Assembly (NCBI GenBank): GCA_026419195.1
Contig: JANZZV010000003.1
Location: 111,464-175,463 of the forward strand
DNA from: Fervidobacterium sp.
GTDB taxonomy: Bacteria > Thermotogota > Thermotogae > Thermotogales > Fervidobacteriaceae
Direction of reading: 5' to 3'
DNA length: 64,000 nt
Shown piece by piece: positions 18,586 to 36,446 of this stretch (position 1 is its first letter; the number at the start of each line of letters is the position of its first letter). A program made the translations under genes and the position numbers. The notes under the pieces were generated by a model, which saw nothing but the letters and a program-made list of their open reading frames with translations, had not been told where the DNA came from and ran no database searches.

Positions 18586-19935
18586 TTAGAATTTTACTGA
18601 GTAAACAAGTTTAGCATTCCATGTTGGTTCCGTCAAGAAGGTCCAACCAGCAGAGTCATCTCCTGTTAATGTTCCGAAGAAGCCTGTAAGTCTTACATTG
18701 CTTGTGAGTTGGTAAGAAGCAGAAACGTTGTATCCATTCTTTGTAGTTGTCATCCTATAGTTGCCTGTGAGTGTCAAAACATCAACCTTTGCCGTAGCTT
18801 GCACATGAATGTAATCGAAAACATTTAGTGTTGTTACGTCTTTCCAGAAAGCTTTTGCTGTTAAGCTGAACATTTCAACTGCAAGATCACCTTGAGCATA
18901 AAGTTCGTATTTCTTTGTATTATCGAGTACATCAGAATTATTCGTTTTTACGTAAAGGGTAATAGGTGCAAAGACAGCTTTTACTGAAAGTTCATCTAGA
19001 GGAAGTGTAAGCTTTGATGATGAAAAGTTGTATTTTGGCGTAACCTTAACTTTTGGTGTTACTGGTCCAAATGCTTGACTGTATGTAACAGCTGCTTGTA
19101 CATATTTATCTCCTAAAATGTTATTAGACATATAATCAAGTTCGGTAATATTTTCAGCGAATTTAACAGTTGGTTTTATTTCTAAACCAGCAACTGGTGT
19201 AAGTGAACCTGAAAGAATGAAATCGTAAGCTGTTTCCATTCCAGATGCGCCTGCAACCATACCTCCAAAAACTGTAAGATCTGGTTTAAAGAAACCAAGA
19301 TCAAGTTTGCCTTTCACTTCAGCACCAAATTCATGTGTTGTAGGAAGAGTACTCGTTCTGTATATACCACCAACTACATTAAATCCTGCAATTGGATACT
19401 TAACAAGAACCATATCGCTAAAGTATGCATCATTCGATGGTTCCGGATCTTTTCTGTCGATATAGTACACTTCTAAGCCAGCAATCGTTGGGAATGTGAG
19501 TTTAAGCGTATCTGAAAAGTCAGCATTGAAAGCTGAACCAGTCCATGTTACCGTCCCATCAGCATTATAAATCCTACCGGTGAAATAATCACTTACAAAA
19601 ATTTTTGGAACACTGTAAAGTGCATCGAAATAAGGTGTTTTAAAAGATATAGTTCTGAGTGAGAAATTAACTCCAATAGAAGTACCAGATGATGGATAAC
19701 CATAAGTTAATCCAAAAGTTACACCTGCTGACGTTACGGATGTTGGTGATAGTGAAAGCGAAACCGTTGCATCTAATGGTGCTGTACCACTTATGTCAAT
19801 CCCCTTGCTGTCTACCACAAGTTCGAATGTTGCCGTTCCTGAAAACGAAATCTTTGTGCCTTGTGAAAATGTTGCTTCACCTGCAAAAACGAACAATGCC
19901 AAAACGAGTAATAAACTTACCAAAAACTTTTTCAT
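18586..19935 (-). CDS. Outer-membrane beta-barrel protein, OmpB-like (toga porin candidate)
   Basis: The 449-residue protein has a signal peptide (MKKFLVSLLLVLALFVFAGEA) and then repeated alternating hydrophobic strands rich in Tyr, Thr and Ser, ending in KLVYSVKF with a C-terminal Phe as in outer-membrane barrels. It lies 107 bp downstream of a clear Omp-alpha gene, the same arrangement as ompA1-ompB in Thermotoga maritima. I infer a porin-like component of the toga. GGAGGAGGGAG gives very strong translation initiation, suiting an abundant envelope protein. Sequence similarity to known OmpB was not tested. Confidence 0.75.
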   Translation of the reverse strand: MKKFLVSLLLVLALFVFAGEATFSQGTKISFSGTATFELVVDSKGIDISGTAPLDATVSLSLSPTSVTSAGVTFGLTYGYPSSGTSIGVNFSLRTISFKTPYFDALYSVPKIFVSDYFTGRIYNADGTVTWTGSAFNADFSDTLKLTFPTIAGLEVYYIDRKDPEPSNDAYFSDMVLVKYPIAGFNVVGGIYRTSTLPTTHEFGAEVKGKLDLGFFKPDLTVFGGMVAGASGMETAYDFILSGSLTPVAGLEIKPTVKFAENITELDYMSNNILGDKYVQAAVTYSQAFGPVTPKVKVTPKYNFSSSKLTLPLDELSVKAVFAPITLYVKTNNSDVLDNTKKYELYAQGDLAVEMFSLTAKAFWKDVTTLNVFDYIHVQATAKVDVLTLTGNYRMTTTKNGYNVSASYQLTSNVRLTGFFGTLTGDDSAGWTFLTEPTWNAKLVYSVKF

Positions 19936-20042: not shown

Positions 20043-21779
20043 TTAGAACCATTCAAAGACTTTACCTAAGGCAATGATACCTATTATCAACCCACTGATA
20101 CCAGTAACTAACCCCCAAGTTGCAATTGTTTGTGCTTGTTCTAATTCTTTCTTCGTTGCAGAAGATTTTTCAACTTCTGAAAGTTTTTTGTTAATTTCCT
20201 CTACGTCAGATTTATCAGCCTTAACTTCTTCGACAACTTGCGTTAAACTTGCAACCTGATCTTCTAACAACCCTAATCTCATGCTCAAGTTTTCTATTTT
20301 CTCACTCATTTCATTTTTGAAGTTTACCACAAAATTGTCAAGTTTGTCAAGTTTTTCTCTAAGTTGGTTGATTTCTTCTTGTTGTCCCATAACAACTTCG
20401 GATAACATTACCGTTTTTTGATCTATAGTTTTGTAAATATCTTCAAACACTTCTTTGTTGGACTGCTCATGTTCACTTATAATTGTTTTAAGTTCGGTTA
20501 TAGATGCTTTACATGATTCTTCTATGTTGGAAATTAGTGTCTTAAGTTGTTCTGCAACAACATCTGTATAAGCCTTCATGGATTCCTCAGTATTCGCAAT
20601 TTCTTCTGAAAGTCCGTATACTAAGCTTCTTATAGCCGGTAAACCTGTGGAAATTGTGCTTTCTACATTAAGTACTCTTATCTCAACCTCGTCAAGTCTT
20701 GAGTTAAGTTGCGCAATTTCTTCTTGCTGACCAAGAATAGCTTCAGATAATGTCGCTACTTTCTGTTCGATGGTTTTGTATATGTCTTCAAACCTTTCGT
20801 TGTTTGATAATTCGTGTTCTTCCATTAGTGCTCTTAGCTCTTCTGAAATGACATCCGTGTAAGCTTTCATCGATGCTTCAGTGTCTGCAAGTTCCTCTGA
20901 AAGTCCATAGATCAATGTTCTTAACGCCGGCAAACCAGTATTTAACGTGCTCTCTATGTTTAGTATTCTTGTTTCAAGTTCATCAAGTCTTGCCGTGAGC
21001 GTTGCTTCAAGTAACGTTAAATCTTCTCGAAGTGAGAGAACTGCATCTGAAAGTGTATTATAAATATTTGCTATTGTTTCGTTTGTGTCTTCAATCTTGG
21101 ATTGCAGCATTTCAAGTTGTGACTTTAGCTCATCCACTTTTGCCGAGAGTTCCGAAATAGCTTTTGATAGTTCATCACTTTTTGCACTCGTTTTTTTGTC
21201 AAGATCTGCTATTTGTTTCCTCAAAAGGTAATCCACATCACCAAGTTGAGCCGCAAGACCACTCAGTATTTCGCTTAAACCCGCAATATCGTTTTTGAGC
21301 GTCGATAAGTCAATTTCAGAAGTGTTACCTTCTTCGTCTGTGTAAACAAATTTATCTTGTAGCTGTGTAGTAATATCGAACAATTTTATGATATCTTGAT
21401 CGTGAAGTTGAAGCGTCAATTTTATGTTTTGAATTTCCGTTTCAATCTCATTAACTCTTTTGCTAAAGTCGTTACTACTTGCTTCAAGAGTGTTTTGAAG
21501 TCTTTTAATAATCTGGAGTAATGAATCTATCTGAGCTTGTTTGTCTTTCAGTGAAAGTTCGACGTAATCAAGTGTTCTTGAAATTAATAAAGCTGACTGA
21601 TATCTCGTGACAGCTTCATCACCGCGGAATGTACCATCCGGAAAGCCTGTTATAATACCAATCTGCTCAAGCCTTGAAACATAACTTTCTGCCCAATGTC
21701 CTCTTGGGACATCTCTAAAAGCCGCCATTGATACAAAAGCAAAGAGTATCACACTTAGTATTACTAAAAGTTTTTTCAT
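20043..21779 (-). CDS. Omp-alpha type SLH / coiled-coil outer envelope spacer protein
   Basis: Signal peptide (about 1-19), one SLH domain (FRDVPRGHWAESYVSRLEQIGIITGFPDG, near residues 21-75), a coiled-coil rod of about 470 residues and a C-terminal membrane anchor (LVTGISGLIIGIIALGKVFEWF) give exactly the Omp-alpha plan of Thermotoga. In that model the SLH domain holds the cell wall and the rod spans the periplasm to the outer membrane. The rod contains a module repeated twice (NTGLPALRTLIYGLSEELA and STGLPAIRSLVYGLSEEIA, with following YTDV and FEDIYKTI blocks). It has its own promoter and is followed by the ompB-like gene. Confidence 0.9.
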   Translation of the reverse strand: MKKLLVILSVILFAFVSMAAFRDVPRGHWAESYVSRLEQIGIITGFPDGTFRGDEAVTRYQSALLISRTLDYVELSLKDKQAQIDSLLQIIKRLQNTLEASSNDFSKRVNEIETEIQNIKLTLQLHDQDIIKLFDITTQLQDKFVYTDEEGNTSEIDLSTLKNDIAGLSEILSGLAAQLGDVDYLLRKQIADLDKKTSAKSDELSKAISELSAKVDELKSQLEMLQSKIEDTNETIANIYNTLSDAVLSLREDLTLLEATLTARLDELETRILNIESTLNTGLPALRTLIYGLSEELADTEASMKAYTDVISEELRALMEEHELSNNERFEDIYKTIEQKVATLSEAILGQQEEIAQLNSRLDEVEIRVLNVESTISTGLPAIRSLVYGLSEEIANTEESMKAYTDVVAEQLKTLISNIEESCKASITELKTIISEHEQSNKEVFEDIYKTIDQKTVMLSEVVMGQQEEINQLREKLDKLDNFVVNFKNEMSEKIENLSMRLGLLEDQVASLTQVVEEVKADKSDVEEINKKLSEVEKSSATKKELEQAQTIATWGLVTGISGLIIGIIALGKVFEWF

Positions 21780-29924: not shown

Positions 29925-29954
29925 TTGCAAAACCTTATTCCAAAGTGCTATAAT
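29925..29954 (+). promoter_or_regulatory. Promoter of the SLH-less Omp-alpha-like gene
   Basis: -35 TTGCAA, an 18-bp spacer and TATAAT (29949-29954), giving a leader of about 105 nt. The rest of the 355-bp gap between rpsO and this gene holds only the two divergent promoters; I see no small gene in it. Confidence 0.7.
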
Positions 29955-30066: not shown

Positions 30067-31269
30067 ATGAAAAAACTGGGGATTATTCTTGCGGTTGTTT
30101 TTCTTGGTTTAATGACTTTTGCACAAACCGATCTTAGCAGTATTATCAACAGGATAGAACTACTTGAAGAATATGCAAATATGATCTACGATGCTGTAGG
30201 AACAAAGCTAGCTATTGAAGATTTTGACGAGTACGTTGCTCAAATGGAGGAAAGAATTTCAGCACTTGAAATTGATGTTTTGAACATCAAAAGTAGCATT
30301 ATGACAGGTATGCCTGCGCTTAGGGACATGCTTTATGAACTTTCTTCAAATCTTTCAAATGTTGAAGCAAGACTTACATCGTATGTAGAAGTTGCAATCG
30401 GCTCACTGAAAGAAGAACTTGGAAATCTCATGCAAACAGATTGGACAAGCGTGATCGAAGATTTGAAGGTTACACTCGACATTCATGATAGCGACATTCT
30501 TAAGATTTATGAAACACTTGGTACACTTTCTGAACAAGTTAGTGCGTTGAGTGAAATGCTTGCTGGTCAAGAAGAATTATTAAGGAATGTTGAAGCTTTG
30601 GCTCTCAAAGTTAACATGCACGATCAAGATGTAGTTAATATATATGATAATTTATCTGCAAAAGCAGACAGAGAGCAAGTTGATATGCTTGAAGCCTCAA
30701 TCACAGAGCTTTATGATTCGATAAATGGTTTAAACGAAATTCTTACTGGTTTAGCGGCGCAGATCGGAGATACTGATTATTTACTTAGAAAGCAAATCTC
30801 TGATCTTGAAAAGAATATCAACACAAAACTCGGCGATTACGTTACAAAAACTGCTCTTGAAGAAAAGCTAAGTAGTATTTACGGAACTATAGATGATCTC
30901 AAGGTTACACTCGACATCCACGATAGTGATATACTTAAAATTTATGAAACGCTTGGCACATTATCAGATCAGCTTGCAATCTTGAGCGAAGCATATGCCA
31001 ATCACGAAGAGAAACTTCAGAAACTCGTAAACAGGAATGAACTTTTAGAAGAATATGTAAATATGGTTTACGATGTCGTAAATACAAAACTTTCTCAAGA
31101 AGATTTTGAAAGCGCTAACGAAGCGACAAACAAGAAAATTGAAGAAACTAACAAGAAAATTGAAGAAACTAAGGTAGAGATAAATAAAAAGATTGATAAT
31201 GTAAACTTGGTTGCATGGTTGGGTCTCATACTTGGTACTGTTGCACTTGTGATTTCATTCGTGAAATAG
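30067..31269 (+). CDS. Omp-alpha-like coiled-coil envelope protein without SLH domain
   Basis: The protein has a signal peptide (MKKLGIILAVVFLGLMTFA), a coiled-coil rod and a C-terminal membrane segment (LVAWLGLILGTVALVISFVK), but no SLH domain. It shares modules with the Omp-alpha protein at 20043-21779, including LTGLAAQIGDTDYLLRKQI and the TGMPALR-type unit. It also carries its own duplication: LKVTLDIHDSDILKIYETLG occurs twice. Just before the anchor NKKIEET is doubled by a perfect 21-bp repeat. ATG 30067 follows AAAAGGGAGGG; an upstream in-frame extension lacks a ribosome site. It is probably a periplasmic spacer anchored in the outer membrane (inference). Confidence 0.8.
   Translation: MKKLGIILAVVFLGLMTFAQTDLSSIINRIELLEEYANMIYDAVGTKLAIEDFDEYVAQMEERISALEIDVLNIKSSIMTGMPALRDMLYELSSNLSNVEARLTSYVEVAIGSLKEELGNLMQTDWTSVIEDLKVTLDIHDSDILKIYETLGTLSEQVSALSEMLAGQEELLRNVEALALKVNMHDQDVVNIYDNLSAKADREQVDMLEASITELYDSINGLNEILTGLAAQIGDTDYLLRKQISDLEKNINTKLGDYVTKTALEEKLSSIYGTIDDLKVTLDIHDSDILKIYETLGTLSDQLAILSEAYANHEEKLQKLVNRNELLEEYVNMVYDVVNTKLSQEDFESANEATNKKIEETNKKIEETKVEINKKIDNVNLVAWLGLILGTVALVISFVK
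31129..31170 (+). repeat. Perfect 21-bp tandem repeat inside the rod gene
   Basis: Two identical adjacent 21-bp units (31129-31149 and 31150-31170) encode NKKIEET twice, one coiled-coil heptad each, just before the C-terminal membrane anchor. Confidence 0.9.
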
Positions 31270-31284
31270 AAAATTAAACATCTT

Positions 31285-31316
31285 AAAAAAGCGGGAGCAA
31301 GATGCTCCCGCTTTTT
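31285..31316 (+). terminator. Terminator of the SLH-less Omp-alpha-like gene
   Basis: GCGGGAGC and GCTCCCGC pair around AAGAT, with six A residues before and a T-run after; it may also serve the convergent flagellar operon. Confidence 0.92.
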
Positions 31317-32684: not shown

Positions 32685-35198
32685 ATGAAAAGATTGTGTG
32701 TGACTTTTTTGGTCATCTTGTTGATGCTCGGTATATTTTCGTGCGGCTTGAGAATCCCTGAGAAAATTCCAGAAAAGGTCTCTGTCAATTACACGAAGAA
32801 CCTTGAATTTCCGATAACAACGTTTGATTTCAAGATGAGTCAGCTATTAGACAATTTGATAAGCGGTGTTGGAAACAGTCAGTTCAAAATCCTGAAAGAG
32901 AGTCCAATGAGATTGCAATATGCTACGGATGTTTCTTATTCACCAGGTACTATTCTGAAAGACGTAAAGGAACAGATAAAGAGTAATCTTTTGAGCTTTA
33001 GCGAGAGTTTTAGTTTTAAACTTGACACAGAAGGTTTCTTAACAAACCTTCAAGGTACGGTATCGCTACCACAAATGCCCAGTCAAGACCAGGAAAGTAT
33101 CATCGATATTTCTGAAGTAAGCATAAATAATTTAATCTTAGCTAACAACATTCCAATTTTGATGGGACCGAACGATAGTCTATCGCTTGGGGATTTACTG
33201 GCTTCGTTACCGTTTGACGAAGCTAATTTCAAAGAATGTACAATTGAATTGTCCTTCTCCGGTATTGGAGGCTCAAATCTTGGTATTATAATCGATGGTA
33301 CCGAGAGACCTTTTAATACTAAGATATCGTTATTCATCAAGAAAACATCATCTTTTATTCTGAAAAATAAAAGCTCAAACACCGTATCAGGGAATTTAAC
33401 TTTAAAATTTACGAATTTGAAGCTAAATTACTTCAAAAATTTGAAGGTGTCGGATGTTACATCCGATGGGAAGATAACCATAAATATTCCATCGCAAAAT
33501 GTCTCAATTGCATCGGGTAATTGGCTCTTAAAACTTGGTGGAAAGATAATAGAAAAGATCATTATTCCAGGATTTTCTGGTAGTATAACACAAACGATTA
33601 ACTTGAAAAGCGGAAGCGTTAACCTCGGGAGTCAATCTTCCAATAGTTTGTTGGTTGAGGTTCCAGTAAACGAGGTTTACTTCAAAGTTGGAGAAGGAAT
33701 ACAAGTTAGCGGTAATGTCCAACTATCTGGAATTGTCAGTGCAGATCTTAGATCTGAAAAACCAAAGGTAAAGGTAACACCAAACATAACTGTAAAAGCT
33801 GTGAAGAATTTTGAATTTACAGTGGATGTACCCAAACCAGATGTGGTTCAATCTATTAGCTTTACAAGCGATAGTGGGTACATGGTCGTTAATTTCACCG
33901 GTCTAGCATTAAAAGAAGCTACAACAACTTTTGGTGAGACAATAAAAGATTCGAAAGTGAAAGTCAGCTTCAAAGGAGTTTCTTTGCCAGAGCAGATTAA
34001 AGTGGTCCTTGAAGCAGATGTAACTTCCAGTAACATATCTTACCAAGCAAGTTTGCCGAGCGGTCAAACTATAAAGATAGCAAGTGCCGTTGTGGATAGT
34101 TCACTCATAGCGGATAAAAAGGTTGATATCCAATATCCAATACCTGATTTTGTCAAAACCATCGTCAATTCACTCGATGCAAACATCGCTGTGAAAATAA
34201 GATACAAAATCAGAGGTATAAATGGATTAAAGATGAACATATCTTCGAACTTCTTCGAAGTAGGCACTGGCGAAGTTACTTTCAACGATACAAGTGGCAG
34301 CGAAAAAACTCATATTCTTTCTGCTAACAAAAATATCAATTTTAGTACATTTAATAAATTCGAACTAAAAATAGAACCTTCTTTAAGTAATAACATAACC
34401 TTATCAAATGTTGACTTAAACGAAGGTGCTTATATTATATTTACACCAGAGATAGATACCTTTAATATAAGTAACGTATCTATAAAAGAGCAACAATATC
34501 AATTCGATAATTTGGCAACGTTAAACTTAGATCAGTTGTTTGCCAACAATCTGGAATTCTTAAAAGAATTTGATTACGAGATATCAGCTAAGGTCAAGTT
34601 CGATATCACCAATTCAACAATACCTGCAACTGTTGTATTGAATGTCTCCGGAACAAATGTTGTCATTAATAAAGGTGAAGAGAAAGACATTGGAGATCTT
34701 ATAGAAAACTTCATAAAACAAGGAGGAATATTACAAATTAGTGCGAAAATAAAAACAAAAGAAGGTGTTTTAAACGAAAATAGCGAGATAAAACTTAGCT
34801 TAAACCTCGATGTGCCGTTCTCTTTAACAGCAAAAGGTAAAGATATCATTGTAAATAGTGGACCGGTTAACCAAGATCTTAGCATATTAAAACAGATATC
34901 AAATATTGTCCAAAAAGCAGAACTTAAATTCAAGACATGGAATAACACAACAGGGTTAAGTGTGAGATTGAAGCTCAAAGAAGGGACAACCGAAATTTTG
35001 AATACGGACATTTCTAGTGCTCACCCAGTGATTACTTTAACAAAAGAACAAATGCAGAGGCTCGGTAGTGGTGGAATAAGCTACGAAATAATAGTACCGA
35101 AAGACCAAAAAGTGTCTTTAAACTATACAGGAAAGCTCGCAATGGCACCTTATATAGCTGTTGAACTAAGTGTAGCCACGGAAGTTAAGTTAAAATAA
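32685..35198 (+). CDS. Large beta-rich putative lipoprotein, unrecognised
   Basis: I do not recognise this 837-residue protein. The N-terminus MKRLCVTFLVILLMLGIFSCG has a lipoprotein signal with Cys at residue 20. The rest has no membrane helix and is made of many short alternating hydrophobic/polar stretches such as ISFTSDSGYMVVNFTGLAL and KVKVSFKGVSLPEQIKVVLEADV, which suggests repeated beta strands. An envelope location is therefore likely. It is followed 15 bp later by a secreted beta-rich protein and the pair look like an operon. GGAGGTGGGAG precedes ATG 32685. Confidence 0.75.
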   Translation: MKRLCVTFLVILLMLGIFSCGLRIPEKIPEKVSVNYTKNLEFPITTFDFKMSQLLDNLISGVGNSQFKILKESPMRLQYATDVSYSPGTILKDVKEQIKSNLLSFSESFSFKLDTEGFLTNLQGTVSLPQMPSQDQESIIDISEVSINNLILANNIPILMGPNDSLSLGDLLASLPFDEANFKECTIELSFSGIGGSNLGIIIDGTERPFNTKISLFIKKTSSFILKNKSSNTVSGNLTLKFTNLKLNYFKNLKVSDVTSDGKITINIPSQNVSIASGNWLLKLGGKIIEKIIIPGFSGSITQTINLKSGSVNLGSQSSNSLLVEVPVNEVYFKVGEGIQVSGNVQLSGIVSADLRSEKPKVKVTPNITVKAVKNFEFTVDVPKPDVVQSISFTSDSGYMVVNFTGLALKEATTTFGETIKDSKVKVSFKGVSLPEQIKVVLEADVTSSNISYQASLPSGQTIKIASAVVDSSLIADKKVDIQYPIPDFVKTIVNSLDANIAVKIRYKIRGINGLKMNISSNFFEVGTGEVTFNDTSGSEKTHILSANKNINFSTFNKFELKIEPSLSNNITLSNVDLNEGAYIIFTPEIDTFNISNVSIKEQQYQFDNLATLNLDQLFANNLEFLKEFDYEISAKVKFDITNSTIPATVVLNVSGTNVVINKGEEKDIGDLIENFIKQGGILQISAKIKTKEGVLNENSEIKLSLNLDVPFSLTAKGKDIIVNSGPVNQDLSILKQISNIVQKAELKFKTWNNTTGLSVRLKLKEGTTEILNTDISSAHPVITLTKEQMQRLGSGGISYEIIVPKDQKVSLNYTGKLAMAPYIAVELSVATEVKLK

Positions 35199-35213
35199 GG
35201 AAGGTGAATGAAC

Positions 35214-36446
35214 ATGAGAAAAACAGTCTTGATTTTTGTGGTTTTGTTGAGTATATATGCACTTGGTACAGTCTTGGGTCCTTTTGGAATACTTGGTAAT
35301 CCTGCTTTACTAAAAGAAGACGGGACGTTTTTACTTAAAATTTCACCTATTGTTGATCTGCAATTTTTCCAAAATCTTTTGACACTTGATAATATAAATG
35401 CTATTTTGAATGAAGAAGAGATACTTATTAATCCAAACACCATGGGACATGTCATACAAAATGGGATAAAATTTTCACTTCCTGTTAATATCACTGCTTA
35501 TGCTCACTTGAATCTCCTCGGTCTAAGACTTGTACCCTATGTTACTGTTGATGGAATGATTAATATGAGCCTTCCAAAAACATTTTCTCAAATACTGTTT
35601 GACAATGAGCCAAAGGTTGAAACAAACCTTGAAAGCACTATTCAAAACTTTGCAAAATCAGATATAAAACTATCGATTGGTGGTAATGTGTTACTTGGTG
35701 ATTTATTTGTTAATGCTAATTTCTTCATACCCGTTGCGTACAGCTATGCACAAAACACTTACGCACATGCAAAATACACTTCATCGGCAACTCCTACGTA
35801 TGCAAATTTGAATGTTGATGCAAAGCTAAGCTTGTTGAGTACAATCGATATTCAAAATTTTGGTAACAATTTGCAAGATCCGGAGAAACTGCTTGAGCAG
35901 GTTCAGAAGTTAATTGAAAAAGATGCAGGAATTAACCTTGGATTCGGATACGGTAATCGAAATTTTGGATTTGCTATAAAAGATATAACAGTTAAACCTG
36001 CAAAAGTAAATTACGGTTTGGAATTTGCAATGAACGCTTATGCTAAGTATCAAGCAGAGGCAACAGATATAACTTTTGATGCAACATACACAGTATCTCA
36101 ACCCATTTTCTTTAAACTACTTAATCCTATCGAGATAATGGACAATGTAAAAATTACAGCATACTACAAAAACGATGGGTTCATAATGTGGGGAATTTCA
36201 GGAGTATACGCACTTAACGGAGATTGGGCTGCAAAGATTTACGCTGGATTGAATCTGTCAATCCTAAAAGCTTACTATGCCCTAGGAATGTTCCCAACTT
36301 TCTATTCACATACAATCGGAGTAGGATTCAATGTTGGTCTGTTGAATGGTGATTTACAGTTGACGGCAACAACGAATGATTTAAACTTAATGGGTTCAAC
36401 GACCCCAGGTATAGGTGTATCTCTTAGACTGGCTGGCGGATTGTAA
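35214..36446 (+). CDS. Secreted beta-rich protein, possible outer-membrane barrel
   Basis: This 410-residue protein is unrecognised. It has a signal peptide (MRKTVLIFVVLLSIYALG) followed by VLGPFGILGNPALLKEDGTF, a pattern like the start of outer-membrane barrels in which 'NPA' follows the signal, and many amphipathic strands ending GIGVSLRLAGGL. ATG 35214 is chosen because AAGGAAGGTG ends only 2 nt before ATG 35208. It is in an apparent operon with the lipoprotein upstream, so the two may work together in the outer envelope (inference). Confidence 0.7.
   Translation: MRKTVLIFVVLLSIYALGTVLGPFGILGNPALLKEDGTFLLKISPIVDLQFFQNLLTLDNINAILNEEEILINPNTMGHVIQNGIKFSLPVNITAYAHLNLLGLRLVPYVTVDGMINMSLPKTFSQILFDNEPKVETNLESTIQNFAKSDIKLSIGGNVLLGDLFVNANFFIPVAYSYAQNTYAHAKYTSSATPTYANLNVDAKLSLLSTIDIQNFGNNLQDPEKLLEQVQKLIEKDAGINLGFGYGNRNFGFAIKDITVKPAKVNYGLEFAMNAYAKYQAEATDITFDATYTVSQPIFFKLLNPIEIMDNVKITAYYKNDGFIMWGISGVYALNGDWAAKIYAGLNLSILKAYYALGMFPTFYSHTIGVGFNVGLLNGDLQLTATTNDLNLMGSTTPGIGVSLRLAGGL

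Follow-up and report, generated by a model that had tools for sequence, protein, structure and literature searches.

The window, as the whole analysed stretch of 64,000 nucleotides from a Fervidobacterium sp. contig is called here, contains two genes for rod proteins of the Omp-alpha type (Table 1). One encodes OmpA1, which has an SLH domain, and its neighbours match the gene order described for ompA, with tyrS upstream and ompB downstream (PMC3387000). The other, named X here, reads from an ATG codon, preceded by a Shine-Dalgarno-like AGGGAGGG (read by eye), to a TAG codon. X lies outside the tyrS-ompA-ompB order; in a pattern search it adjoins a divergent rpsO gene at all 10 loci, and a fliE-like frame was found at five of them. 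The region of X has nine promoter-like matches, compared with a mean of 5.8 in shuffled sequence, and the signal peptide was called from sequence and hydrophobicity alone. Further downstream, at 32685–36446, two secreted-looking proteins, one of 837 aa that has a lipoprotein-like N-terminus and one of 412 aa, are encoded side by side next to flagellar genes.

Table 1. Features of the X gene and of the OmpA1 locus in the window.
Feature	Position	Strand	Basis
OmpB-type porin	18586..19935	-	weak Porin_4 match, E 0.003, below the Pfam cut-off; gene order
OmpA1 (Omp-alpha) with SLH, module-sharing paralog	20043..21779	-	tyrS-like gene upstream, porin-like gene downstream
Promoter-like site TTGCAA-18-TATAAT, TG before second hexamer	29925..29954	+	consensus match only
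X, SLH-less Omp-alpha paralog, 400 aa	30067..31269	+	10 orthologs aligned
Predicted signal peptide, aa 1–19	30067..30123	+	hydrophobic stretch, KD15 2.69; cleavage inferred after TFA
Module A copy 1, aa 29–54, LLEEYANMIYD	30151..30228	+	E 4e-17
Predicted beta-layer VGT	30196..30204	+	6-residue break before K47; motif logic of PMC4786415
Module C, aa 67–109, TGMPALRDMLYELS	30265..30393	+	E 3e-24; shuffle test
Module B copy 1, aa 133–156, LDIHDSDILKIYETLG, H140 at core d	30463..30534	+	profile, spacing, register
Module B copy 2, aa 180–201, NMHDQDVVNIYDNLSAKAD	30604..30669	+	E 1e-12
Predicted beta-layer KAD, nonad LSAKADREQ	30661..30669	+	motif as in PMC4786415
Module D, aa 219–249, LTGLAAQIGDTDYLLRKQI	30721..30813	+	E 1e-21; shuffle test
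Predicted beta-layer YVT (YVTKTALEEK)	30838..30846	+	6-residue break before T262
Module B copy 3, aa 278–301	30898..30969	+	only window X among 10 orthologs
Module A copy 2, aa 323–348	31033..31110	+	E 6e-17
Predicted beta-layer VNT	31078..31086	+	6-residue break before K341
C-terminal hydrophobic helix, aa 381–399, LVAWLGLILGTVALVISFV	31207..31263	+	KD19 2.53
Terminator-like hairpin followed by T-run	31286..31316	+	consensus match only

No match of X to Pfam or NCBIfam was above the curated cut-offs, and those seen were generic and coiled-coil-like (for Pfam, among the best 25 of 28 families). No solved structure gave a match below E 0.09. An AlphaFold model made from the X alignment is all-helix with a mean pLDDT of 51.6 and a pTM of 0.20, and was set aside as too poor to be used as evidence. 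The sequence-only reading had described X as an Omp-alpha paralog that keeps the signal peptide, the rod and the C-terminal anchor and has no SLH domain. The profiles and the hydrophobicity bear out a protein with a signal peptide, a heptad-rich rod and a C-terminal hydrophobic helix but no SLH domain. A hydrophobic C-terminal helix is found in all 10 X proteins. Pfam gives no SLH match in X at E≤1 among the best 25 of 28 families, and matches the SLH domain of the OmpA1 protein with E 1.6e-9. When an SLH profile built from 13 OmpA1 sequences was run on 10 X proteins and 11 proteins of a second SLH-less family, named Y, the lowest E was 210 (for a set size of 1000 sequences). None of the 44 matches of PF00395 in 12 genomes, nine of which have X and Y, falls within X or Y. 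A cryptic SLH domain, which had been foreseen as the weak point of the claim, was thus detected neither by Pfam nor by the OmpA1-trained SLH profile.

Strong relatives of X were found in 10 genomes when 61 genomes, and then 103 of the class, were searched. They are present in 8/9 genomes of the genus of the window and in both genomes of a second genus, that is in 10 of 11, the only one without X being G004, which is 60% complete. The dN/dS values of X are 0.06–0.11 in all four genome pairs, and those of OmpA1, computable for two pairs, are 0.09 and 0.10; X is under purifying selection. Outside this Fervidobacterium-type group the X-related homologs, taken as the 42 distinct open reading frames hit by an X profile with E<1e-3, have an SLH domain in 35/35 genomes opened; these are the full nine from the sister genera plus 26 more (with G021 left out). 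The strongest of these homologs, with E 3e-36 to 1e-36, are OmpA1. In these searches SLH-less rods like X and Y were confined to the Fervidobacterium-type group, and since the outside homologs keep the domain, a loss of SLH in that lineage is the simpler reading of the direction of change.

Family Y is present in all 11 genomes of the two genera, and in the window genome it is encoded on the minus strand of another contig (L056:2580-3722, G000:C5). Its proteins share the rod modules and have no SLH domain, and none of the 10 copies with a complete end has a hydrophobic tail (Y of G009 is cut by the contig end). A CxC motif is located near the N-terminus in 9/11. The Y protein of the window genome has the N-terminus HVHNEECGCE, and its gene lies between purL-like and HD-domain genes (names given by eye).

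The rods are built from four recurring modules, A (LLEEYxNMIYD), B (HDxDIxxIY), C (TGLPALRDxxYELS) and D (GLAAQIGDTDYLLRKQI), which were defined by iterated profiles seeded with the window proteins. Profiles built from 13 OmpA1 proteins match window X with E 1.2e-18 for the TGxPALR unit C, 2.9e-15 for unit D, 1.6e-8, 2.8e-8 and 6.4e-4 for the three copies of the HDxDI unit B, and 7.5e-15 and 8e-13 for the two copies of the LLEEY unit A, and each of the four modules is matched in 10/10 X orthologs. Of 900 shuffled X and Y sequences with preserved heptads, one passes E<1e-3 for C, and none does for A, B or D. The OmpA1 stretches had first been located by profiles seeded from X, so the comparison is not fully independent and serves as a check against coiled-coil chance similarity, not as a blind test. 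With profiles from Fervidobacterium-type OmpA1 only, the shuffle matches of C rise to 2/900. Four OmpA1 proteins of the sister genera, which gave no A unit from which a profile could be built, still match X in 10/10 with B and C and in 9/10 with D, with no match in 900 shuffles. In Y the 13-OmpA1 profiles find A and B in 8/8 proteins, C in 5/8 and D in none of the eight. The segment of GLAAQIGDTDYLLRKQI type and the TGxPALR unit had been claimed as common to X and the SLH protein, and they are recovered here with at most one shuffle match in 900; the alternative, that the two rods would be unlike in a profile search, goes against the match of all four modules in every X. That X is an SLH-less Omp-alpha paralog assembled from the same rod modules is well supported by these sequence comparisons.

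In window X the module order is A-C-B-B-D-B-A-tail. The orthologs generally have A-C-B-B-D-tail, with a final A added in G001, G002, G009 and G013, so that a second, C-terminal A is present in 5/10 X. X of G006 and of G008 begins with two A modules, and in G005 the order is A-D-C-B-B-tail with D moved to the N-terminal side. The spacing is rather constant, with A-C at 42 in 8/10 (49 in G008, with D intervening in G005), B-B at 45 in 8/10, and B-D at 53 in 8/9 of those having that order. In the Fervidobacterium-type genomes OmpA1 has the order SLH-(A)-B-D-(A)-C-tail; that of the window genome has a second C, and D is absent from those of G009 and G013. The order of Y in eight genomes is A-C-B-B-A-(B), where C is incomplete or absent in G000, G005 and G006 and the second A is partial in G007. 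Fewer units are found in the short Y proteins of G001, G002 and G004. Modular growth and shrinkage, as proposed earlier, is thus seen among the X orthologs as gain, loss and one transposition of units, but the unit order differs between X and OmpA1, and the two rods therefore differ in more than their length.

General concerted evolution of the X and OmpA1 rods was considered and rejected, as unit D keeps family-specific residues, namely QIGDTD in 10/10 X and QLGDVD in 7/7 Fervidobacterium-type OmpA1 proteins with the pattern (it was not found in G009 and G013). In the OmpA1 proteins of G003, G007 and G008 (L045, L046, L047) an A-C block of 89 aa groups among the X blocks, with a support of 88/92 in the protein tree and 83/93 in the DNA tree, neither of them starred. 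This suggests, not firmly, one exchange of an A-C block between X and OmpA1 in these genomes.

At least two HDxDI units are present in every X. The duplication of this unit in window X had been called private, and this holds for the third copy among the 10 X proteins; extra copies are also found in Y of the window genome (G000) and of G008. The 24-aa stretches around IHDSDILKIYETLG, at aa 132–155 and 277–300, are identical in protein sequence and differ synonymously in 11/24 codons; such differences in codons without any change of amino acid suggest that the letters of the third B unit are under selection. An OmpA1 protein from the same order, but from a genus that belongs to a different family (L102:1060-2262, G033), has three B units of the DLHEKDIINIY type, indicating that the unit is older than the Fervidobacterium group.

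The heptad register was assigned with a home-made score that uses hydrophobicity only and no motifs, in 34 rods (10 X, 11 Y and 13 OmpA1). Register breaks located at TK or KAD motifs correspond to insertions of 2 or 6 residues in 48/59 cases, against 40/217 elsewhere, in counts that pool orthologs, which are not independent, and with motif patterns that were chosen once the breaks had been inspected. The pattern holds for penalties from 3 to 5, and was found as well in six spread genomes (28/35 at motifs against 19/114 elsewhere), in X alone (24/27 against 11/57) and in the window genome alone (4/6 against 2/23). At the middle penalty 58 of the 104 motif sites carry a break and 46 do not. The KAD motif of window X has a 5-residue break just behind it, and the counterparts in G003, in G005 and in Y of G013 have 2-residue breaks.

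In the account given in PMC4786415, insertions of 2 or 6 residues are the cause of beta-layers in trimers with parallel chains, KAD and [aliphatic]-A-T-K being the motifs. Trimers are predicted for the present rods because that work ties such insertions to beta-layers in trimers (PMC4786415). X is thus probably homotrimeric, with a coiled coil broken by beta-layers. The rod of Omp-alpha from T. maritima was reportedly modelled as four-stranded in 1995, whereas the register analysis predicts a trimer for the family. The histidine of HDxDI falls at core position d in 50/53 units, with the second aspartate at g in the same 50 (47/53 at penalty 5), and both residues are invariant across 13 aligned OmpA1 proteins. 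A buried histidine layer is therefore predicted as a conserved element of the X, Y and OmpA1 rods, and binding of an ion by this layer would be speculation.

With a coiled-coil rise of 0.148 nm per residue the rods of X should be 38–53 nm long (53 nm in the window) and those of OmpA1 49–71 nm, giving a ratio of 0.74–0.92. The lengths of X and OmpA1 are correlated in the nine genomes (r 0.84, p 0.0046), a relation that was noticed post hoc as one of three pairs. Independent contrasts on the TyrS tree give r 0.79 (p 0.012), and without the window genome the values are r 0.69 (p 0.058) and a rank correlation of 0.80 (p 0.017). The length of Y is unrelated to that of OmpA1 (r 0.19) or X (r 0.34) in eight genomes, the contig-cut Y of G009 being dropped.

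X shares with Omp-alpha/OmpA1 of the TM0477 type the signal peptide, the long heptad rod, the four modules and the C-terminal hydrophobic helix, and differs from it in having no SLH domain, a changed module order and a location outside the secG-tyrS-ompA-ompB block. All OmpA homologs identified in a published survey are stated there to have the SLH motif, with one or two homologs per species, those of F. nodosum being Fnod_1724 and Fnod_0047 (PMC3387000), and Omp-alpha is described, with F. nodosum named, as consisting of SLH, stalk and transmembrane helix (PMC9388160). The conserved SLH-less X is a departure from the first of these statements, built from known parts. No title or abstract opening found in open-access searches on the toga, S-layer homology and coiled-coil outer membrane proteins of these bacteria describes SLH-less rods. 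The Deinococcus connectors SlpA and SlpA-like, which join outer membrane and wall, also have a periplasmic coiled-coil stalk, trimeric in SlpA, but SlpA has an SLH domain and an outer membrane beta-barrel, whereas X has no SLH and a predicted helix as its only anchor (PMC9388160). The alpha/beta coiled coils of OMP100 and Tcar0761 have KAD and [aliphatic]-[AG]-T-K motifs at 2- or 6-residue breaks as in X (PMC4786415), but the layers predicted in X are single and scattered, and do not form a run of nonads.

The genomes also encode SLH proteins that we label OmpA2-like, which are secreted and coiled-coil-like and have a hydrophobic tail resembling that of X. Unlike X they keep the SLH domain and have no A–D modules at E<0.01, as found in 7/7 copies scanned (L069, L070, L073, L074, L075, which is incomplete, L077 and L081), indicating that X does not descend from them. 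In the PF00395 search, 8/9 Fervidobacterium-type genomes have an SLH protein with an open frame of 864–1139 aa (L058–L061, L063, L065, L071 and L078), and none of the modules A–D was found in the seven stretches scanned (all except L078).

Our tentative reading, to which we would give somewhat less than an even chance, is that X is an untied trimeric stand-off strut, hung from the outer membrane and derived from a duplicated OmpA1. The OmpA1 gene would have been duplicated in an ancestor of the Fervidobacterium-type bacteria, and one copy would have lost the SLH domain and reordered its rod modules to give X. The protein would be exported and form a homotrimeric coiled coil interrupted by beta-layers, its C-terminal helix would, by homology, hold it in the outer membrane, and the rod would stand in the periplasm, not tied to the wall by a known route. 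OmpA1 should then act as a tether that limits the separation of toga and wall, and X, as an untied rod about 0.8 times as long as the tether, might resist collapse and could stay with the toga where this peels from the wall. In this sense X may be a toga spacer, as had been suggested from the sequence.

The helix could instead hold X in the inner membrane as a type I protein, with the rod pointing outward as a periplasmic post or a trimeric chaperone of toga proteins. The tail of X is more hydrophobic than that of OmpA1 in 9/9 genomes (KD19 difference 0.29–0.55), and Lys or Arg follow the helix in 7/10 X, as the positive-inside rule would favour for such an orientation. The KD19 values of the X tails are 2.31–2.80, but the tails of six OmpA2-like SLH proteins from these genomes are as hydrophobic (2.36–2.80, with 2.05–2.06 in two OmpA2-like proteins of the second genus), and tail hydrophobicity was therefore dropped as a discriminator between the membranes. 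The tail of X is moreover positioned as in OmpA1, with a similar Gly-rich pattern, and OmpA2 of T. maritima, to which the OmpA2-like proteins correspond by our label, was found in toga-enriched extracts (PMC3387000). We regard a place in the inner membrane as unlikely. It is very improbable that X mixes with OmpA1 or Y in hetero-oligomeric rods, diluting the SLH domains per rod. The three families have modules in common, and in G003 and G007 both X and Y are arranged as A-C-B-B at equal spacing (42, 57, 45). According to the profiles, however, C precedes the B units in X and follows B in OmpA1 in all nine genomes with both, and order or spacing differs between X and Y in G000, G005, G006 and G008 and is one residue off in G009 and G013. 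Because of these differences it is in general unlikely that mixed rods form with their chains parallel and in register.

X and Y turned up in Fervidobacterium-type genomes only, and F. pennivorans is reported to have a terminal spheroid of the toga (PMC9861569), so that X might belong to the detached toga of the spheroid as a rod lining without wall contact. The co-occurrence is a single event, since only one clade is involved, and in other Thermotogales, too, the periplasm is large at one end of the cell or at both (PMC5487896); we consider this lining rather improbable. The loss of SLH, the variable length and the rearranged modules could also fit a functionless, decaying remnant of the OmpA1 duplicate. 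Against this, the X frame is open in 10 genomes and lies beside rpsO in each, the dN/dS is 0.06–0.11, and QIGDTD of unit D is kept in 10/10, and such a remnant is strongly disfavoured, with hardly any probability left to it. The untied strut may also be taken further, to a pair in which OmpA1 trimers pull the toga in and X trimers prop it out, with HDxDI as an ion-binding or pH-sensitive lock. As a joint proposal this is quite doubtful; if it were true, a buried histidine layer, with His at d and Asp at e and g, would be repeated along both rods.

Omp-alpha is the classic rod in the question of what fixes the spacing of outer membrane and wall in the diderm cells of Thermotogota. What is new here is that close relatives have SLH-less rods of the Omp-alpha type in common, which are absent from the account of OmpA homologs in the earlier published survey (PMC3387000). 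From one module kit, a single genome encodes rods with both anchors (OmpA1), with one (X) and with none (Y), a set that would allow tethering and spacing to be separated by deletion.
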